Assembly: GCA_015059735.1 (NCBI GenBank)
Contig: SUZX01000003.1
Location: 1 to 64,000 of the forward strand
From: Rikenellaceae bacterium
GTDB taxonomy: Bacteria; Bacteroidota; Bacteroidia; Bacteroidales; Rikenellaceae
Direction: 5' to 3'
DNA length: 64,000 bases
Part shown: piece after piece, positions 55,589-63,712 of the stretch
Numbering within the stretch: position 1 is the first letter of the stretch
Layout of the letters: every line of letters starts with the position of its first letter
Made by a program: the position numbers and the translations under genes
The notes under the pieces: model-generated
Seen by the model: only the letters and a program-made list of their open reading frames with translations
What the model was told of the DNA's origin: nothing
Database searches by the model: none

Positions 55589-55949
55589 CAGCTCCTATGC
55601 GACGGTTAAGCACAAAAGAAAGTGTGGAGCCGAATTCGTTTATCTTTTGGAGGCTCTGGTAAGCCCAAGTACAAATAAACAATACTCCACACCCGTATTG
55701 AGCATGGAAGAATATCCCACGAGCAATCAATACGAAGTGATGAGTGCCTTGCCAACCCTTGTACTTTGAAATTTACCAGATTCCCAAAAGGGATAAAAGC
55801 GAATACACTTTCATCAAAATATGTCTGCCACAGATCAGCCGTAGCAACGACAAAGTTATGAAATTTTTGTTTACCGACAATATTCGAAACAAATCTATCG
55901 CTGAGAAAATAAAAAATGGTCTGAACGGCCGATTATGGCAGGGAATTTC
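55589..55949. other. Intergenic stretch without recognisable gene
   Basis: No ORF here has a recognisable product. The only structure seen is an inverted pair GTGTGGAG (55622-55629) and CTCCACAC (55685-55692), 55 nt apart, which might be the end of a decayed mobile element. The ORF at 55744-55968 on the plus strand has no detectable family features and runs across the ispG promoter. Confidence 0.5.
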
Positions 55950-55957
55950 TATCTTTG
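55950..55957 (+). promoter_or_regulatory. Promoter -7 element of ispG
   Basis: Plus strand TATCTTTG. It lies 23 nt before the ATG at 55980 and downstream of the ORF-track start at 55935, so it decides the start in favour of MNLSEHSRRTAYE. No good -33 box. Confidence 0.6.
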
Positions 55958-55979
55958 TAGTCGGATAAACACCGAAACC

Positions 55980-57470
55980 ATGAATCTTTCCGAACACAGC
56001 CGGCGCACAGCATACGAAGTGCGCATCGGACAGGTCACCATCGGCGGCACACAACCCATAGCCGTACAGTCGATGACCAACACCGACACCAACGATACCG
56101 AAGCCAGCGTGGCACAAATCCTGCGCATTGCAGCGGCAGGCGGTCGGATCGTGCGTCTGACGGCACAAGGTCGCCGCGAGGGTGAGAATCTCCGCGAAAT
56201 TGTGCAACGTCTCCGCGAGGAGGGGTGTAATGCCGCCATCGTTGCCGATATCCATTTTGTCCCCGAAGTAGCCAGCATAGCGGCACAATATGTCGATAAG
56301 GTACGCATCAACCCGGGAAACTACCGTACGGATCGGGGTGAGTTGGAGGCATTGATCGAACAGTGTCGCCAGCGCGGTGTCGCATTACGCATCGGAGTCA
56401 ATCACGGGTCGTTAGCCAAACGGGTCTTCGACAAGTGGGGCGACACCCCACAAGGCATGGTGGTTTCGGCTATGGAGTTTCTGCGGATCTGCAAGGCACA
56501 TGATTTCGATCAGGTGGTCGTCTCGATGAAATCGAGTAACACACGGGTCATGGTGGCAGCCTATCGGTTGCTGGCCGAGGCTATGGATGCCGAGAGGATG
56601 AGTTTCCCGATTCATTTGGGAGTTACCGAGGCAGGGAACGGATTGGAGGGACGCATCAAGAGTGCCGTAGGAATCGGCGCATTGCTCTCCGACGGCATTG
56701 GCGACACGATTCGTGTTTCGCTGACCGAAGCTCCCGAGAACGAAATTCCTGTGGCGCAACTTCTCGTCGAGCATTTCAAGAATCGCGCGGGAAATTTCAA
56801 GGTATTGCATCCCGAACGTTACTCTCCGACCGAATACCGCCGACGGACAGCCGTACAGATACCGATCGTACACAACGAACCTCTCACAGGCTTTCGCATC
56901 ATCGAGGCGTTATCCGCAAACCCGACGGCCGAATTGCGTGCCGCAATCCTGAATTTGGAGCAACCCGACGAACCGGTAATAGTAAAACGTCGCTACGATG
57001 ATCAGTCGCTCGAAACATTGGCTATAAAAGCTGCGGCAGACTTGGGCGTGTTGTTTCTCGATGGATTGGCCGATGGAATTTGGATCGACGCTCCTCAATT
57101 CTCCGAAACCGAGATCCGCAATGTCGAGTTGATGATTTTACAGGCAGCGCGAGTTCGATTCTCGCAGACCGAATATATCGCCTGTCCGAGTTGCGGACGC
57201 ACGCTCTACGATATAGAAAAAACATTGGCCATCATCAAGTCACGCACATCACACCTCAAAAATTTACGGATCGGAGTGATGGGCTGTATTGTCAACGGTC
57301 CGGGCGAAATGGCCGATGCCGACTACGGCTATGTAGGAGCAGCTCCCGCACGAATCACACTCTACAAAGGGCGTGAGATCATCGCCCGCAACATTCCACA
57401 GGAGGAGGCTCTCGACCGCTTGATCGAGTTGATCAAGGCCAATGGTGATTGGGTAGATCCGGAGGTGTAA
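55980..57470 (+). CDS. ispG: 4-hydroxy-3-methylbut-2-en-1-yl diphosphate synthase
   Basis: Iron-sulfur enzyme of the methylerythritol phosphate pathway of isoprenoid synthesis, making HMBPP from MEcPP. The TIM-barrel domain covers about 1-270 (RIGQVTIGGTQPIAVQSMTNTDTNDTEASVAQILRIAAAGG ... KVRINPGNYR ... VVSMKSSNTRVMVAAYRLLAEAM ... IHLGVTEAGNG). The C-terminal cluster domain has ACPSCGRTLYDIE and GVMGCIVNGPGEMADADYGYVGAAPARITLYKGREII. Between them lie about 125 extra residues (roughly 275-400). The length of 496 aa is more than E. coli IspG (372 aa) but less than the 600-aa forms I know from Bacteroides. The 5'-most ORF codons are rejected because of the promoter. Confidence 0.95.
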   Translation: MNLSEHSRRTAYEVRIGQVTIGGTQPIAVQSMTNTDTNDTEASVAQILRIAAAGGRIVRLTAQGRREGENLREIVQRLREEGCNAAIVADIHFVPEVASIAAQYVDKVRINPGNYRTDRGELEALIEQCRQRGVALRIGVNHGSLAKRVFDKWGDTPQGMVVSAMEFLRICKAHDFDQVVVSMKSSNTRVMVAAYRLLAEAMDAERMSFPIHLGVTEAGNGLEGRIKSAVGIGALLSDGIGDTIRVSLTEAPENEIPVAQLLVEHFKNRAGNFKVLHPERYSPTEYRRRTAVQIPIVHNEPLTGFRIIEALSANPTAELRAAILNLEQPDEPVIVKRRYDDQSLETLAIKAAADLGVLFLDGLADGIWIDAPQFSETEIRNVELMILQAARVRFSQTEYIACPSCGRTLYDIEKTLAIIKSRTSHLKNLRIGVMGCIVNGPGEMADADYGYVGAAPARITLYKGREIIARNIPQEEALDRLIELIKANGDWVDPEV

Positions 57471-57492: not shown

Positions 57493-58098
57493 ATGGTCAT
57501 TCTTCCTTTGGCATATCTCCCTTCGGTGGAGTATTTCACATACCTGAAACAGGGCAACTGCACGATCGACTTGGGCGAACACTTCATCAAACGTTCGGAG
57601 CGTAACCGAGCCCGCATATTGGCACCCGACGGAGTGATGGATCTCACCGTACATGTATGCAAAGCCAACCGTCCCCGTACTCCGATGCGCGAGATGCGTC
57701 TTGACTACTCGAAACGCTGGCAACACCAACATTGGGGAGCTTTAACCGCCTCGTACAAGGCCTCGCCCTATTTCGACCACTATGCCGAACTATTAGAACC
57801 GTTTTATCAGCACGAATATCACTTTTTGGTCGATTACAATTGGGCACTGCTCGAAACTCTCTGCAACCAACTCGGCATTGCCATACCAAATTTCAGCGAA
57901 TCGTATATCGACGCAACCGAAGAGGATCTCGACTTGCGCCCCAAACAAAAAGAGGGCTCGGCATTTGTTGCTGAACCCTATGTGCAGGTCTTTTCCGACC
58001 GACTTCCTTTCACTCCTAATCTTTCGATTGTGGATTTGCTGTTTGCAGAAGGCCCTGCGGCTTCGGCTGTGCTGGCGCAAAGCCTGCGGGGAAAGTAA
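57493..58098 (+). CDS. WbqC family protein
   Basis: A 201-aa cytoplasmic protein of the WbqC family, often found with lipopolysaccharide or glycan loci; its reaction is not established. Signature segments: LPLAYLPSVEYFTYLKQGNCTIDLGEHFIKRSERNRARILAPDGVMDLTVHV, DYSKRWQHQHWGALTASYKASPYFDHYAELLEPFYQ and the end YVQVFSDRLPFTPNLSIVDLLFAEGP. It follows ispG by 22 nt on the same strand. Its last 83 bases overlap, tail to tail, the 3' end of the GH2 gene on the other strand. Confidence 0.9.
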   Translation: MVILPLAYLPSVEYFTYLKQGNCTIDLGEHFIKRSERNRARILAPDGVMDLTVHVCKANRPRTPMREMRLDYSKRWQHQHWGALTASYKASPYFDHYAELLEPFYQHEYHFLVDYNWALLETLCNQLGIAIPNFSESYIDATEEDLDLRPKQKEGSAFVAEPYVQVFSDRLPFTPNLSIVDLLFAEGPAASAVLAQSLRGK

Positions 58099-60040
58099 AA
58101 CCATCACGCAAAGTACCTGCTACAATACGCACCTCGGCACGGTCGGGTAAATCGATCGAGTCAGTGCGGTATTGGCAAGGAGCGTATTCGGTCATCGCCA
58201 CAGTATCGGTTCCAATAGTCATTTGCGGAACTCCAGACGAAGAATAGACGCGCAACACTTGTCTGCGACCATTTTGCGACAAATAACGTTTCCCGACTAA
58301 ATGGAGGGTTGGAGAACGGTGATTCCACAAAGCACGATAAAGATAATAGGCATCTTTGCATGTACGACGATCAAATGTCACAAGGCCCTGACAATCGACT
58401 CCATACATTCGCCGTGAAGAGCCATAATCGAACATATTTTCAACCCATACACCCCAAAACAACGAGTCGTTTTGCAGGTTGCGCACATACTCCTCGTGAA
58501 AGCGCGTTTGACGATCCTCGGGCATGCGGTTTGCTTCGGGGAGCGACTGCTCCGAAGCAACGGCATGTCCCACCATGCCATTGCCACCATAGGAAATACC
58601 CGACCGCAGATGCGACCAGTCCTGCCGCAACCGATCTCGCCAAATTGTCAAATCATCAGCCGAGCCACGTTGCCAACCCAACTCCTGTTTCCAAACAATC
58701 AGTTCGCTAATAAAATTAAGTGCCCCGTTGCGATTGCTATGCGCCACAGTGGGACGCGAGGGATCCATCGTGCGAGCCGTATTGTGCAGTTTGCGAATAT
58801 ACGAGGTAGGATTGTCTCCATTCATACGCAGACGCGAAAACAATCCCCACATCACCACCGAAGGATGGTTGATGTTTTGTGCAATAATCTCCTGCAATTG
58901 AACTATTCCGTTTTGTTCGAAAGCCGGCGTGGCAAAATAGGCGATATCGCTCAAAAAAGCCCGATGTAACGGCATGTCGATCCAAACGAGCATCCCCTGT
59001 TCATCACAACGGTTGTAGAGATGTTGCGGATGTGGCTGAACGGCCGACCGCAAAGCATTGGCTCCCATGTCGGCAATTTGGCGCAGATCGGCATCAAGTT
59101 GTTCTGCGGTTCGAAGTCCGCCGGTATAGGCCGTATCGTGATAGAGAGTTACGCCATTCAAACGGATTGGTTGATTGTTGATCGTAAGAGCTCCTTGTTG
59201 TTCAGTACCGATCGAACGAAAACCGGTTCGCACGCTGACACGATCGATCGGCTCAGATTCTCCCAGCATAGCTGTAACGGTATAAAGTACCGGCTGTGCA
59301 GGATTCCACAACTGCGGACGATTGATCGCAAAGGGGAAAGAGATCGGCTTATTCTCTATACGGACACGTTGTCGTTTGGTAAAGACACGCCGCCCCGAGG
59401 AATCAAGGATTTCAAGTGTCAAGTAATTATTGACATTCTCTTGGGCAGTCAGATGCACCTCAACAGTGCCCTCAACCTTGTCGTCTGTAACAAGACGCGG
59501 ATGCACCAACACACCCTCTGAACCGAAATAGAGTGGCGAAATAGCTGTCGGTTCGGTAACTATCAACTCCACTTCACGATAAAGTCCTCCGTAGCGGTTC
59601 TGACTAGTAGAGGTGGGCAGCACATCGTTACGATAACTATTGCTCACACATACAAACAGCGTATTGTCGTGACCGAAACGAACTTTGTCGGTGATTTCGA
59701 ACGTAAAGGCCGTAGCGGCACCCTGATGTGTTCCGATATAGCGACCGTTGACAAAAAGGTCGGCCACACTTTGGGCACCATAGAATTTCAAAAACAGTCG
59801 TTTGGAGGCCCAACACTCCGGCACATGCAACACCCGCTGGTAATTTCCCGTAGTTTCGTAAACCGGCAATCCGGCAGCAGGAACGGTATTCCAACTATGG
59901 GGCAATGTCACGATGCGGGCATTGTCGGAGGTATTCTCCGATCGATAAAAGAAAAGCCATGACTCGTTAAGCGGGATGATTTCGCGGGCTTGTACAATCG
60001 TAGATAATGCAAGTAGCCAAATGATAAAAAGTCGTTTCAT
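58016..60040 (-). CDS. GH2-family (beta-galactosidase-like) protein lacking both catalytic glutamates
   Basis: A 674-aa secreted protein (signal MKRLFIIWLLALSTIVQA) with the full GH2 architecture: jelly-roll sugar-binding domain (about 20-165; SVADLFVNGRYIGTHQGAATAFTFEIT), immunoglobulin-like domain (about 175-280) and TIM barrel (about 285-600; NHPSVVMWGL, PSRPTVAHSN, NMFDYGSSRRMYGVDCQGLVTFDRRTCKDAYYLYRALW). The acid/base motif WxxxNE is WGLFSR, with Arg403 where Glu should be. The nucleophile motif ISEYG appears as GISYG, with Ser483 in place of Glu. The substrate-site segment normally RxAHYPQ reads RSAVQPHPQ. The rest is undamaged, with no stops, so this is probably a non-catalytic binding protein rather than a pseudogene. 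The last 15-20 residues overlap wbqC. Confidence 0.85.
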   Translation of the reverse strand: MKRLFIIWLLALSTIVQAREIIPLNESWLFFYRSENTSDNARIVTLPHSWNTVPAAGLPVYETTGNYQRVLHVPECWASKRLFLKFYGAQSVADLFVNGRYIGTHQGAATAFTFEITDKVRFGHDNTLFVCVSNSYRNDVLPTSTSQNRYGGLYREVELIVTEPTAISPLYFGSEGVLVHPRLVTDDKVEGTVEVHLTAQENVNNYLTLEILDSSGRRVFTKRQRVRIENKPISFPFAINRPQLWNPAQPVLYTVTAMLGESEPIDRVSVRTGFRSIGTEQQGALTINNQPIRLNGVTLYHDTAYTGGLRTAEQLDADLRQIADMGANALRSAVQPHPQHLYNRCDEQGMLVWIDMPLHRAFLSDIAYFATPAFEQNGIVQLQEIIAQNINHPSVVMWGLFSRLRMNGDNPTSYIRKLHNTARTMDPSRPTVAHSNRNGALNFISELIVWKQELGWQRGSADDLTIWRDRLRQDWSHLRSGISYGGNGMVGHAVASEQSLPEANRMPEDRQTRFHEEYVRNLQNDSLFWGVWVENMFDYGSSRRMYGVDCQGLVTFDRRTCKDAYYLYRALWNHRSPTLHLVGKRYLSQNGRRQVLRVYSSSGVPQMTIGTDTVAMTEYAPCQYRTDSIDLPDRAEVRIVAGTLRDGFTFPAGFAPAQPKPQGLLQTANPQSKD

Positions 60041-60065: not shown

Positions 60066-60073
60066 CAAAGATA
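60066..60073 (-). promoter_or_regulatory. Promoter -7 element of the GH2 gene
   Basis: Minus strand TATCTTTG, 25 nt before the ATG at 60040. The gap from 60074 to 60279 holds no recognisable gene. Confidence 0.5.
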
Positions 60074-60287: not shown

Positions 60288-60327
60288 CATGTGGGAAATC
60301 ATCATTCGAGCGAAAACCCTTTGTATT

Positions 60328-61509
60328 ATGGAAAAACCGGCTGAAAAATTGTGGAATGGCAACTACTGCCGAGTATGGATCGCCAACTTTCTGCTCTACT
60401 TTTCGTTCATGCTGCTGACGCCGCTTTTCCCGCTCTATTTGAGTGAGACGTTCGACGCCGACAAGCAGATGATCGGGATCGTATTGTCGGGATATACACT
60501 CACTGCGCTCATCATTCGCCCGTTCAGCGGATATTTGATCGATGGGTTTCCGCGAAGAGTCGTGCTGCTCACCAGCTTTTTTCTCGTCTTTCTACTTTTC
60601 TTCGGGTATCCGCTGTCGGCCAGCCTATTGCTATTTGCCACGATCCGAACCCTACATGGAGCTCCATTCGGAGCGGCCACCATTTCGAATAGTACAGTAG
60701 CAATCGATGTATTACCCTCATCCCGACGAGCCGAGGGAATCGGTTACTATGGTTTGAGCAACAACGTGGCAACCGCTATCAGCCCGACCGTCGCATTGGC
60801 CATCTATGGTGCAACGCACAGCTACAACCTGCTCTTCGCACTGGCAATTTTGGTTTCGGGGCTTGCTTTCTACTGCAACTACACCTTGAAACTGCAACCC
60901 AAAGCCATAACTCGCCGACCACCGTTGTCGTTCGATCGTTTTGTACTGCTCAAAGCATGGCGACAAGGTTTTTGTATCGCCTGTTTCAGTTTCTCCTATG
61001 GAGTTATCTCGACCTATATCGCCGTTTACGGAAAAGAGGAGTTAGGCATTACGAGCGGTACGGGATTATTCTTCATGTTGCTCTCAATCGGGTTGATCCT
61101 TTCACGCATAACAGGTAGCCAAACCCTCCGCAGGGGAAAAATCGCACAAAACGCCTCGATCGGAATATCGATCTCAGCAATTGGTTATCTGCTTTTTGCC
61201 GCACTACATAACTCCTGGGGGTACTACGGTGCAGCCTTTATCATCGGCTTGGGCAACGGCCACATGTTTCCGGCCTTCCAAACCATGTTTCTCAATTTGG
61301 CTTCGAATGACCAACGCGGAACGGCCAACTCCACGCTTTATGTTTCGTGGGATATAGGCGTGGGGCTCGGGATTCTTGCAGGAGGTATGGTGGCTGAATT
61401 TTGGGGCTATCATGCAGCATTTTGGATGATGTGGATTGTGAATGTATTCGGAGCCATCAGTTATTTCGTTTCGGCAAAAAAACATTTCCTGAAAAATCGA
61501 CTGTATTGA
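60328..61509 (+). CDS. MFS transporter
   Basis: A 393-aa, twelve-helix major facilitator starting at MEKPAEKLWNGNYCRVWIANFLLYFSFMLLTPLFPLYL. The loop 2-3 motif A is degenerate but present (LIDGFPRRVVLLTSF), and RTLHGAPFGAATISNSTVAIDVLPSSRRAEGIGYYGLSNNVATAISPTVALAIY is a typical drug-efflux-like helix 4-5 region. The second half has GLGNGHMFPAFQTMFLNLASNDQRGTANSTLYVSWDIGVGLGILAGG. The fold suggests an exporter of small molecules or drugs, as in the YhhS/YfcJ group. The substrate is unknown. It is a single gene. Confidence 0.88.
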   Translation: MEKPAEKLWNGNYCRVWIANFLLYFSFMLLTPLFPLYLSETFDADKQMIGIVLSGYTLTALIIRPFSGYLIDGFPRRVVLLTSFFLVFLLFFGYPLSASLLLFATIRTLHGAPFGAATISNSTVAIDVLPSSRRAEGIGYYGLSNNVATAISPTVALAIYGATHSYNLLFALAILVSGLAFYCNYTLKLQPKAITRRPPLSFDRFVLLKAWRQGFCIACFSFSYGVISTYIAVYGKEELGITSGTGLFFMLLSIGLILSRITGSQTLRRGKIAQNASIGISISAIGYLLFAALHNSWGYYGAAFIIGLGNGHMFPAFQTMFLNLASNDQRGTANSTLYVSWDIGVGLGILAGGMVAEFWGYHAAFWMMWIVNVFGAISYFVSAKKHFLKNRLY

Positions 61510-61594
61510 TCCCTGTCCAACAAAAAACCGCATCACAACGCTCAAAAAGCCGAAATCATAAGGAATAAATAGGTTGCGGATCAAAAAATCTTTA

Positions 61595-61602
61595 TAACTT
61601 TG
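61595..61602 (+). promoter_or_regulatory. Promoter -7 element of the M28 peptidase gene
   Basis: Plus strand TAACTTTG with TTG 18 nt upstream, a weak -33 box. It lies 46 nt before the ATG. Confidence 0.45.
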
Positions 61603-61648
61603 TGGTTTGAAGGACATGTCAAATATTTTCATATAACTTTTTCAACCA

Positions 61649-63166
61649 ATGAAACATCTTTTATTTTATTTATTGCTGTTAATCCCGACTACCGGTTGGG
61701 CACAACAAGCCGCCATAAATAAAATCATGGCAATGGCTCGGGAGGATAATCGCGCCATGCAACATCTCGATATTTTAGTCAACCGTTTCGGAGGACGTCC
61801 GGCAGGCTCGGATGCCTGTGCCAACGCTGAACAATGGGCCAAACGCTGTTTTGAGTCGTGGGGCTATGATGTCAAACTCGAAAAAGCCGGTGATTTGAGT
61901 GTCGGATTCAATCGCGGAGGCTGGTGGGGACGTATGACCGGCGAGGAGTCGATGGTTTTGCACTTCGCAACCCCGTCGTATAGTTCGGGAACCAAAGGGC
62001 CGCAACGAGGACATGTATTGATCGAACCGCGCACACAATCCGAATTCGACGGCATGAAACACCGCTTGAAAGGAGCTTGGGTATTGATAAACGGAAAATC
62101 TCGTGGTGGAGGCATTGCTCGCGACGAAGAGTCAAGAACGCATCGTCGGGAGATCATCGCAAAAAATAACGAAGCTGAAAAATATAACAAAACACTGACC
62201 GATCCGGACGACAACCGCAAGTCAATCAACCGCAAAGAGCCTGCACTCTTCTACGAGGAGATGGTTGCCGCTGGAGCTTTGGGTTTCATTCAAGCCGCGT
62301 CGGTGCCCATTCGAGCTACATACGATCGCTCGGTCGTAAAAGATCGGACTCCGTTTGACAGTCTGCCTACGACACCTTACATTTTACTCGACAAAGAGCA
62401 ATATCTCCGCATCCATAAATTGACCAAACAACGCCGCAATATCGAATTGGAATTCGACATCCGCAATTATTTCAAAATAGGTCCTGTCGATTATCACAAC
62501 GTAGTGGCCACGATCAAAGGCTCAAAATATCCCGACGAATATGTGGTGATGGGATGTCACCTCGACTCTTACGATGTCGCTACGGGAGGAGTAGATTGCG
62601 GCAATGGCGTTTCTGCAATGATGGAGGCCGCCCGCATGCTTTCCGTATCGGGAGCCAAACCCGACAGAACAATCATCTTCATTCTTTTCGCAGCCGAAGA
62701 GTTCGGATTGTTAGGATCGAAAGCGTGGGTTAAAGCACATCCGGAGAAGATCGACAAAATTTCGCTGATGATCAACCGCGATGGCGGACCGTTGCCGTAC
62801 GTCGGCTTCGAAGTTCCGAAATCGATGATCAAAGAGTACGATAAAATTGTCGAGCCCATTCGGCAACTCTATCCCGAATATGGCTTTAAGATCAGCGAAA
62901 TGATCCCCATTCCACGTTCCAGAATACGTGGAGGATCCGATTACAAATCGTTCTTGCAGGTCGGTGTCCCTGCCGTAAAGATGACCATGCGTGATGCAAA
63001 AGGATATAACTTCAACTACGGAGAAATATGGCACACCGAGCGTGATACCTATCAAAAAGCCATTCCGGAATATCAAGAGCAGGCAGCTGCAGCTTTGGCA
63101 ATCATCGCATTGGGAACCGCCAACCTGCCGACAATGTTGCCCCGCGAAGAGTTTTTCCGTCCGTAA
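61649..63166 (+). CDS. Exported M28-family zinc aminopeptidase
   Basis: A 505-aa secreted metallopeptidase (signal MKHLLFYLLLLIPTTGWAQ). An early helical segment and a PA-type insert (about 110-255; GHVLIEPRTQSEFDGMKHRLKGAWVLI) precede the catalytic core. The co-catalytic zinc ligands are in YVVMGCHLDSYDVATGGVDCGNGVSAMMEAARML (His, Asp), IIFILFAAEEFGLLGSKAWV (Glu-Glu), SLMINRDGGPLPYVG (Asp) and GEIWHTERDTYQKAI (His). The order fits the carboxypeptidase-Q/plasma glutamate carboxypeptidase type. It acts in the periplasm or outside. cvpA lies 21 nt downstream. Confidence 0.92.
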   Translation: MKHLLFYLLLLIPTTGWAQQAAINKIMAMAREDNRAMQHLDILVNRFGGRPAGSDACANAEQWAKRCFESWGYDVKLEKAGDLSVGFNRGGWWGRMTGEESMVLHFATPSYSSGTKGPQRGHVLIEPRTQSEFDGMKHRLKGAWVLINGKSRGGGIARDEESRTHRREIIAKNNEAEKYNKTLTDPDDNRKSINRKEPALFYEEMVAAGALGFIQAASVPIRATYDRSVVKDRTPFDSLPTTPYILLDKEQYLRIHKLTKQRRNIELEFDIRNYFKIGPVDYHNVVATIKGSKYPDEYVVMGCHLDSYDVATGGVDCGNGVSAMMEAARMLSVSGAKPDRTIIFILFAAEEFGLLGSKAWVKAHPEKIDKISLMINRDGGPLPYVGFEVPKSMIKEYDKIVEPIRQLYPEYGFKISEMIPIPRSRIRGGSDYKSFLQVGVPAVKMTMRDAKGYNFNYGEIWHTERDTYQKAIPEYQEQAAAALAIIALGTANLPTMLPREEFFRP

Positions 63167-63187: not shown

Positions 63188-63712
63188 ATGAATTGGATTG
63201 ATATTATCGTTATTTTGGTCTTGGGCATCGCCATATGGAACGGCTGGCGACGCGGATTTATCATGCAGGTATGCAGTTTAGCCGGTATTGCCGTTGCCAT
63301 TTGGGTGGCAATAAACTACGGAAAACTTGTCGGACAATGGTTGCAACTCGATAATCAGGTTGCCACGCCGGTCGGTTTCGTCGTCGTATTTGTGGTGGTA
63401 TTGATTGCTGTGGCAATTGTCGCCCGAGGCATCCGCAAATTGTTTGATTTCACAGGATTTGGCATGCTCGATGTCTTGTTGGGTGTGGTGATCTCTTTGG
63501 CGAAATATTTGTTGATACTCAGCGTATCATTGTCTGTTTTCGATCGTTTGAATGACTCGTGGAATCTTGTATCTCGTCAGACGATCGAGTCGTCGAAAAG
63601 CTATCGGCCAATCATCCACCTCTCCGGGCAACTGTTGCCATTATGGGAGTGGGTTGGCGATCAAATTCCGCGACAGGAATTGAAACAACCGCAAGAGGGA
63701 TCGAATATATAA
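63188..63712 (+). CDS. cvpA: CvpA family membrane protein
   Basis: A 174-aa protein with four predicted membrane helices: IDIIVILVLGIAIWNGWRRGFIMQVCSLAGIAVAIWVAINY, VATPVGFVVVFVVVLIAVAIVARGI and LDVLLGVVISLAKYLLILSVSLSVFDRL. The WNGWRRGF motif after the first helix is typical of CvpA, first described as needed for colicin V production. Its general role is unknown. The soluble C-terminus (about 125-174) is hydrophilic. It lies 4 nt before rsgA and after the M28 gene. Confidence 0.9.
   Translation: MNWIDIIVILVLGIAIWNGWRRGFIMQVCSLAGIAVAIWVAINYGKLVGQWLQLDNQVATPVGFVVVFVVVLIAVAIVARGIRKLFDFTGFGMLDVLLGVVISLAKYLLILSVSLSVFDRLNDSWNLVSRQTIESSKSYRPIIHLSGQLLPLWEWVGDQIPRQELKQPQEGSNI

Follow-up and report, generated by a model that had tools for sequence, protein, structure and literature searches.

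A candidate pseudoglycosidase of the GH2 family retained across the gut genus Alistipes

The window analyzed here is a stretch of 64,000 nucleotides from a presumed Alistipes genome (1.91 Mb, 15 contigs). Its minus strand encodes a GH2-like protein of 674 amino acids at positions 58016..60040, an open reading frame whose length and motifs agree with a preliminary description made from the sequence. The protein begins with a signal peptide read from the sequence (residues 1-18, MKRLFIIWLLALSTIVQA with RE following; 59987..60040) that carries no lipobox cysteine, and this N-terminus can be aligned with orthologues and with intact enzymes. A Pfam search of the whole protein found three domains in the GH2 order, all above their cut-offs: the N-terminal jelly roll (PF02837, approximately residues 19-165; 59546..59986), an Ig-like domain (PF00703, residues 179-275; 59216..59506) and the TIM barrel (PF02836, residues 282-572; 58325..59197), all on the minus strand. 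The protein is a member of GH2 as a sequence and fold family, and its domains, signal peptide and frame are as intact as had been claimed. The best solved relatives are the Bacteroidales GH2 enzymes 5z1a, 3cmg (a “putative beta-galactosidase”) and 8dhe (E values of 1e-109 to 1e-113), which resemble it in domain order and length and align with it over approximately 600 residues. Among named families, the NCBIfam beta-glucuronidase LacZ4 (NF050095) scores best, with a match spanning residues 8-608. Yet the score of 495.5 bits falls short of the curated cut-off of 950, which places the protein outside the LacZ4 equivalog, and the catalytic residues are missing. Bacteroidetes promoters have the -7 consensus TAnnTTTG, and a match by sequence reading, TATCTTTG, precedes the ATG by 25 nt (60066..60073, minus strand). 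Within the jelly roll, all intact enzymes compared have Asp at the column of residue 146 (59603-59605), and 129 of 136 Alistipes orthologues (135 extracted and the window’s own, aligned together) have either Asp or Glu there; Ser is found only in the window’s protein.

The gene is surrounded by housekeeping genes. A wbqC-family gene identified by Pfam (57493..58098, plus strand) is convergent with it and overlaps its 3′ end, followed outward by ispG, identified by NCBIfam (55935..57470, plus strand), while cvpA, identified by Pfam, lies on the other side (63188..63712, plus strand). Synteny supports all three neighbors: the order cvpA-GH2-wbqC-ispG recurs across genera, and wbqC is convergent with the GH2-like gene in 116/135 Alistipes loci (only 2 of the other 19 had room to show wbqC). 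The context also includes RsgA, and in relatives IspD/LemA or RelA/GTPase. An MFS transporter and an M28 peptidase gene (60289-63166) separate the GH2-like gene from cvpA in the window. Since most of the relatives examined have cvpA close by, this intervening pair looks like an insertion or rearrangement in the window’s lineage. No SusC/SusD was found at the GH2-like loci examined in the window and its relatives. The possibility of a surface glycan-binding protein belonging to a polysaccharide utilization locus (PUL) was rejected on the basis of the housekeeping neighbors and the missing SusC/SusD and lipobox cysteine.

An active retaining GH2 enzyme has an acid/base glutamate following Asn on strand 4, a nucleophile glutamate on strand 7 (in SEYG) and a -1 subsite made up of the AHYP His, Asn/Tyr on strand 6, Trp on strand 8 and N-x-K; none of these could be recognized in the aligned protein. 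The enzymes 5z1a, 3cmg and 8dhe have Asn-Glu and SEYG; in alignments to them, WGLFNEL becomes WGLFSRL and GISEYGAG becomes GIS-YGGNG in the window protein, and the His/Tyr/Asn/Trp/Lys subsite is changed as well. At the former acid/base motif, WGLFSR (residues 398-403; 58832..58849, minus strand), Ser402-Arg403 replaces Asn-Glu. The former nucleophile motif, GISYGG (residues 481-486; 58583..58600, minus strand), is one residue shorter than GISEYGA and has no Glu. Orthologue alignments and a profile-profile comparison against intact enzymes (E 8e-139 over 645 columns) found the same catalytic columns altered. The replacement of the acid/base Glu by Arg403, as put forward in the preliminary description, was borne out by both the alignments to the solved enzymes and the profile-profile alignment. 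Its reading of the nucleophile site was right that the Glu is absent; the proposed Glu-to-Ser483 substitution did not stand, and the site is best described as a one-codon deletion that includes the Glu. The residue before Tyr484 varies among Alistipes orthologues (C53 A42 S16 T8 E7 Q6 and others), and Ser483 therefore does not represent a conserved replacement.

The loss is shared throughout the genus. All 136 Alistipes orthologues have a nucleophile motif one residue short, and 133/136 lack Glu at the acid/base column, which drifts among L, R, Q, C, M, E and other residues. The search for homologues sharing the Arg and Ser that had been suggested found a shared deletion (136/136) with variable residues at both sites. 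A Glu occupies the acid/base column in three orthologues and precedes the Tyr in seven, never in one protein, so that both glutamates occur together in 0/136. The Glu before YG in these few orthologues was considered as a surviving nucleophile and rejected, as the column is variable and none of them has the acid/base residue too. Three GH2 paralogues in the window’s genome retain the Asn-Glu motif, which argues against a genome-wide error. By homology to a glycoside hydrolase family and the loss of its catalytic residues, the protein is classed as a predicted pseudoglycosidase.

The changes extend to the residues that would hold a sugar. Ten columns that show little or no variation among intact enzymes are lost or vary freely here: His300, His334, Tyr335, Asn402, Glu403, Asn451, Tyr453, Glu483, Trp534 and Lys551. 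His334 is found in 0/136 and Lys551 in 11/136 Alistipes orthologues, and Tyr453 and Trp534 are lost, compared with 10-11 of 11 intact enzymes. The former AHYPQ substrate segment reads AVQPHPQ (residues 333-339; 59024..59044, minus strand), a change that had been noted before and that takes away the conserved His and Tyr at positions 334 and 335; column comparison identified His337 in this segment as newly conserved. We take these subsite columns to be sugar-contacting residues by analogy with LacZ and beta-glucuronidases. With the -1 subsite residues gone, sugar binding is not implied by GH2 homology, and any sugar binding would need a different set of residues.

The gene is widespread and its history can be followed across the family. 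A match was found in 180/180 Alistipes genomes searched, including all 70 that are near-complete (completeness of 90% or more, contamination of 5% or less), and a homologue in 22/22 genera of the family, which was taken as Rikenellaceae. In a maximum-likelihood tree computed with the two motif regions left out of the alignment, the altered group excludes eight enzymes that belong to other families of Bacteroidales, a single copy of genus g8 and two copies of genus g14, all of which have intact NE and SEYG. In nearly all members of a 55-row clade (support 100/100), other residues stand in place of Asn-Glu (S-N, S-K, S-D, G-G and others). The first branch of this clade consists of nine rows in which the nucleophile Glu is mostly still present, and a nested clade of 46 rows from 11 genera (100/100) has the one-residue deletion in every row. 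An early branch without the acid/base residue and mostly with the nucleophile shows a stepwise loss, acid/base first and nucleophile second, and the nucleophile loss in the 46-row clade would most simply be a single deletion event. Of the 244 genomes sampled from Bacteroidales that do not belong to the family, eight gave a match at E <= 1e-90, all intact, and no intact close copy was seen in Alistipes. Plasmid and phage collections held only distant GH2 relatives below 60% identity and gave no sign of mobility.

The TIM barrel of the Alistipes proteins is most conserved at its mouth. Column comparison identified His301-Asp302 (59135..59140; 130/136 and 136/136 Alistipes orthologues), Asp355 (58976..58978; 132/136, Glu in intact enzymes) and Gln452 (58685..58687; 134/136), all encoded on the minus strand. 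It also identified three Alistipes-specific invariants on the same strand: Ser332 (59045..59047; 134/136, Leu in intact enzymes), Trp532 (58445..58447; 134/136, Phe or Tyr elsewhere) and Arg543 (58412..58414; 133/136). With His337, all of these are new or changed near-invariants in Alistipes, apart from Asp302, which is old. Sites at the C-terminal strand ends of the barrel and close to them were hand-picked from motif positions, the eight ancestral catalytic and subsite columns were excluded, and the resulting mask was shifted along the barrel. None of 290 shifted masks was as conserved in Alistipes, so that, catalytic columns aside, no part of the barrel is better conserved than the strand ends; among the remaining genera of the deletion clade the signal was weaker, with 24/290 shifted masks as conserved. 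AlphaFold models based on five sequences reached a mean pLDDT of 42.7 for the full protein and 41.4 for the barrel alone, too low for an overlay, and viral contigs scanned for further relatives for modelling contained none. Pocket geometry as given here therefore rests on alignment; the strand ends near 299, 332, 355, 435 and 533 are consistent with the secondary structure that these low-pLDDT models show. The conservation of the mouth would speak, indirectly, for a specific ligand bound where the active site used to be and against a bare scaffold, and it could be partly structural.

Several explanations for such a protein can be weighed. An artefact of sequencing, assembly or alignment limited to the window might be suspected from an assembly in 15 contigs; it is refuted by the recurrence of the deletion and the acid/base loss in 135 other Alistipes orthologues and ten further genera, and its probability is negligible. 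A neutral relic, in which the gene decays once activity is lost, is suggested by the free drift of the catalytic columns and by the few earlier-branching copies in pieces. Against it, all 70 near-complete Alistipes genomes keep the gene, full-length frames persist over a mean pairwise identity of approximately 50%, and the median dN/dS over 83 Alistipes pairs is 0.137. Retention and dN/dS contradict decay, which is highly improbable, and because of them the gene is regarded as maintained by purifying selection. The secreted pseudo-enzyme in a preserved fold that the preliminary description proposed is therefore strongly supported as a prediction from sequence, with both glutamates and most of the -1 subsite gone; the carbohydrate-binding or sensing role that it ventured is only a possible one.

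What, then, might selection maintain? The dead GH2 protein could act through protein-protein contacts, as a pseudo-subunit or scaffold partnering an active enzyme or an envelope complex, with the pocket incidental. The entire four-domain fold and its length are kept despite the lost catalytic center, conservation in Alistipes is similar for the jelly roll and Ig domains and for the rest of the barrel (0.52 vs 0.51), and klothos are protein-binding pseudoglycosidases (PMC7828330). A pure scaffold, however, would have no need of the conserved Alistipes barrel mouth, and no conserved neighboring partner gene was found besides the housekeeping genes, which leaves this explanation rather unlikely. 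The barrel could also still be an enzyme in which new residues (for example His301/Asp302/His337/Asp355/Arg543) replace both glutamates. Asp302 is invariant, Asp355, His301, His337 and Arg543 are nearly so, all lie at or near strand ends, and catalytic residues can migrate, as a pseudoenzyme review points out (PMC10211241). However, the invariance of Asp302 extends to intact GH2 enzymes, so that its role must be older. Asp355 stands in for a conserved Glu with no obvious partner gained, and a retaining pair is not apparent. His301, Ser332, Trp532 and Arg543 are specific to Alistipes, whereas the glutamate loss is older. Migrated catalysis is accordingly considered improbable. A binding function is the explanation considered probable here: an ancient, vertically inherited pseudoglycosidase of the periplasm, repurposed to hold a ligand in a rebuilt pocket without cleaving it. 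Its ancestor would have been an exported GH2 enzyme of the LacZ4/beta-glucuronidase-like branch. Sequences and tree show that the acid/base Asn-Glu and the substrate-holding His, Trp and Lys were lost in a first step, and that a one-codon deletion then removed the nucleophile Glu in the common ancestor of much of the family, Alistipes included. Exported by its signal peptide, the product would most likely be a non-catalytic binding protein of the periplasm, and at its rebuilt barrel mouth His301, Asp302, Ser332, His337, Asp355, Gln452, Trp532 and Arg543 would hold the ligand. As the gene lies at a housekeeping locus and not in a PUL, the ligand may be a glycan of the cell’s own envelope and not a food polysaccharide. 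We infer the periplasmic site, the binding of a ligand in the pocket and an envelope rather than a nutritional role. It is doubtful that the old active site has become, through the same eight residues, a new functional center, possibly with new chemistry, that serves a genus-wide envelope function in Alistipes and its relatives.

Pseudoglycosidases are an already known kind of protein (PMC7828330). The chitinase-like YKL-39 (GH18), klothos (GH1) and CyRPA (GH33) have kept a glycosidase fold, lost catalysis and been repurposed for binding (PMC7828330). These are animal or protozoan proteins of other GH families, whereas the present one is a bacterial GH2 protein found genus-wide and in much of a family. 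The C-terminal pseudo-esterase domain of PgaB in E. coli is a pseudo-CAZyme of the bacterial envelope that binds glycan (PMC7828330). That domain has a CE4 fold and is joined to an active one, whereas the present protein stands alone. In the open-licence literature, no GH2 pseudoenzyme was found, nor a bacterial genus-wide one derived from GH2. The comparisons made here show that, step by step and at the level of a family, a GH2 enzyme has turned into a conserved protein that lacks the GH2 catalytic machinery. Alistipes is a common gut genus in which this protein looks like a core protein. Annotation pipelines would label it a GH2 glycosidase, and scoring it as active would inflate the galactosidase and glucuronidase capacity assigned to gut genomes. 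The natural series from intact enzyme to acid/base loss, nucleophile deletion and rebuilt pocket offers a model for how an enzyme becomes a non-enzyme that is apparently still important.

A few copies depart from the general pattern. One row of the early branch, from genus g2 (L091) and on a long branch of its own, has both glutamates (NE, AEYG) within the clade that lacks the acid/base residue, and may represent a reversion, a transfer or a misplacement. Three rows from genus g8 (L090, L094 and L095) show an independent acid/base loss, with WGLFDQ and a retained SEYG, and one g8 genome (G217) additionally has an intact paralogue (L088). Early-branching copies in genera g6 and g7 (L083, L085 and L096) are split into two or three ORF pieces and are possible pseudogenes or assembly errors. 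Finally, a copy at the start of a contig in an Alistipes MAG (L038:895-1140) has a foreign N-terminus of approximately 80 amino acids that resembles another GH2 jelly roll and carries no signal peptide, a possible case of gene conversion or an assembly chimera.
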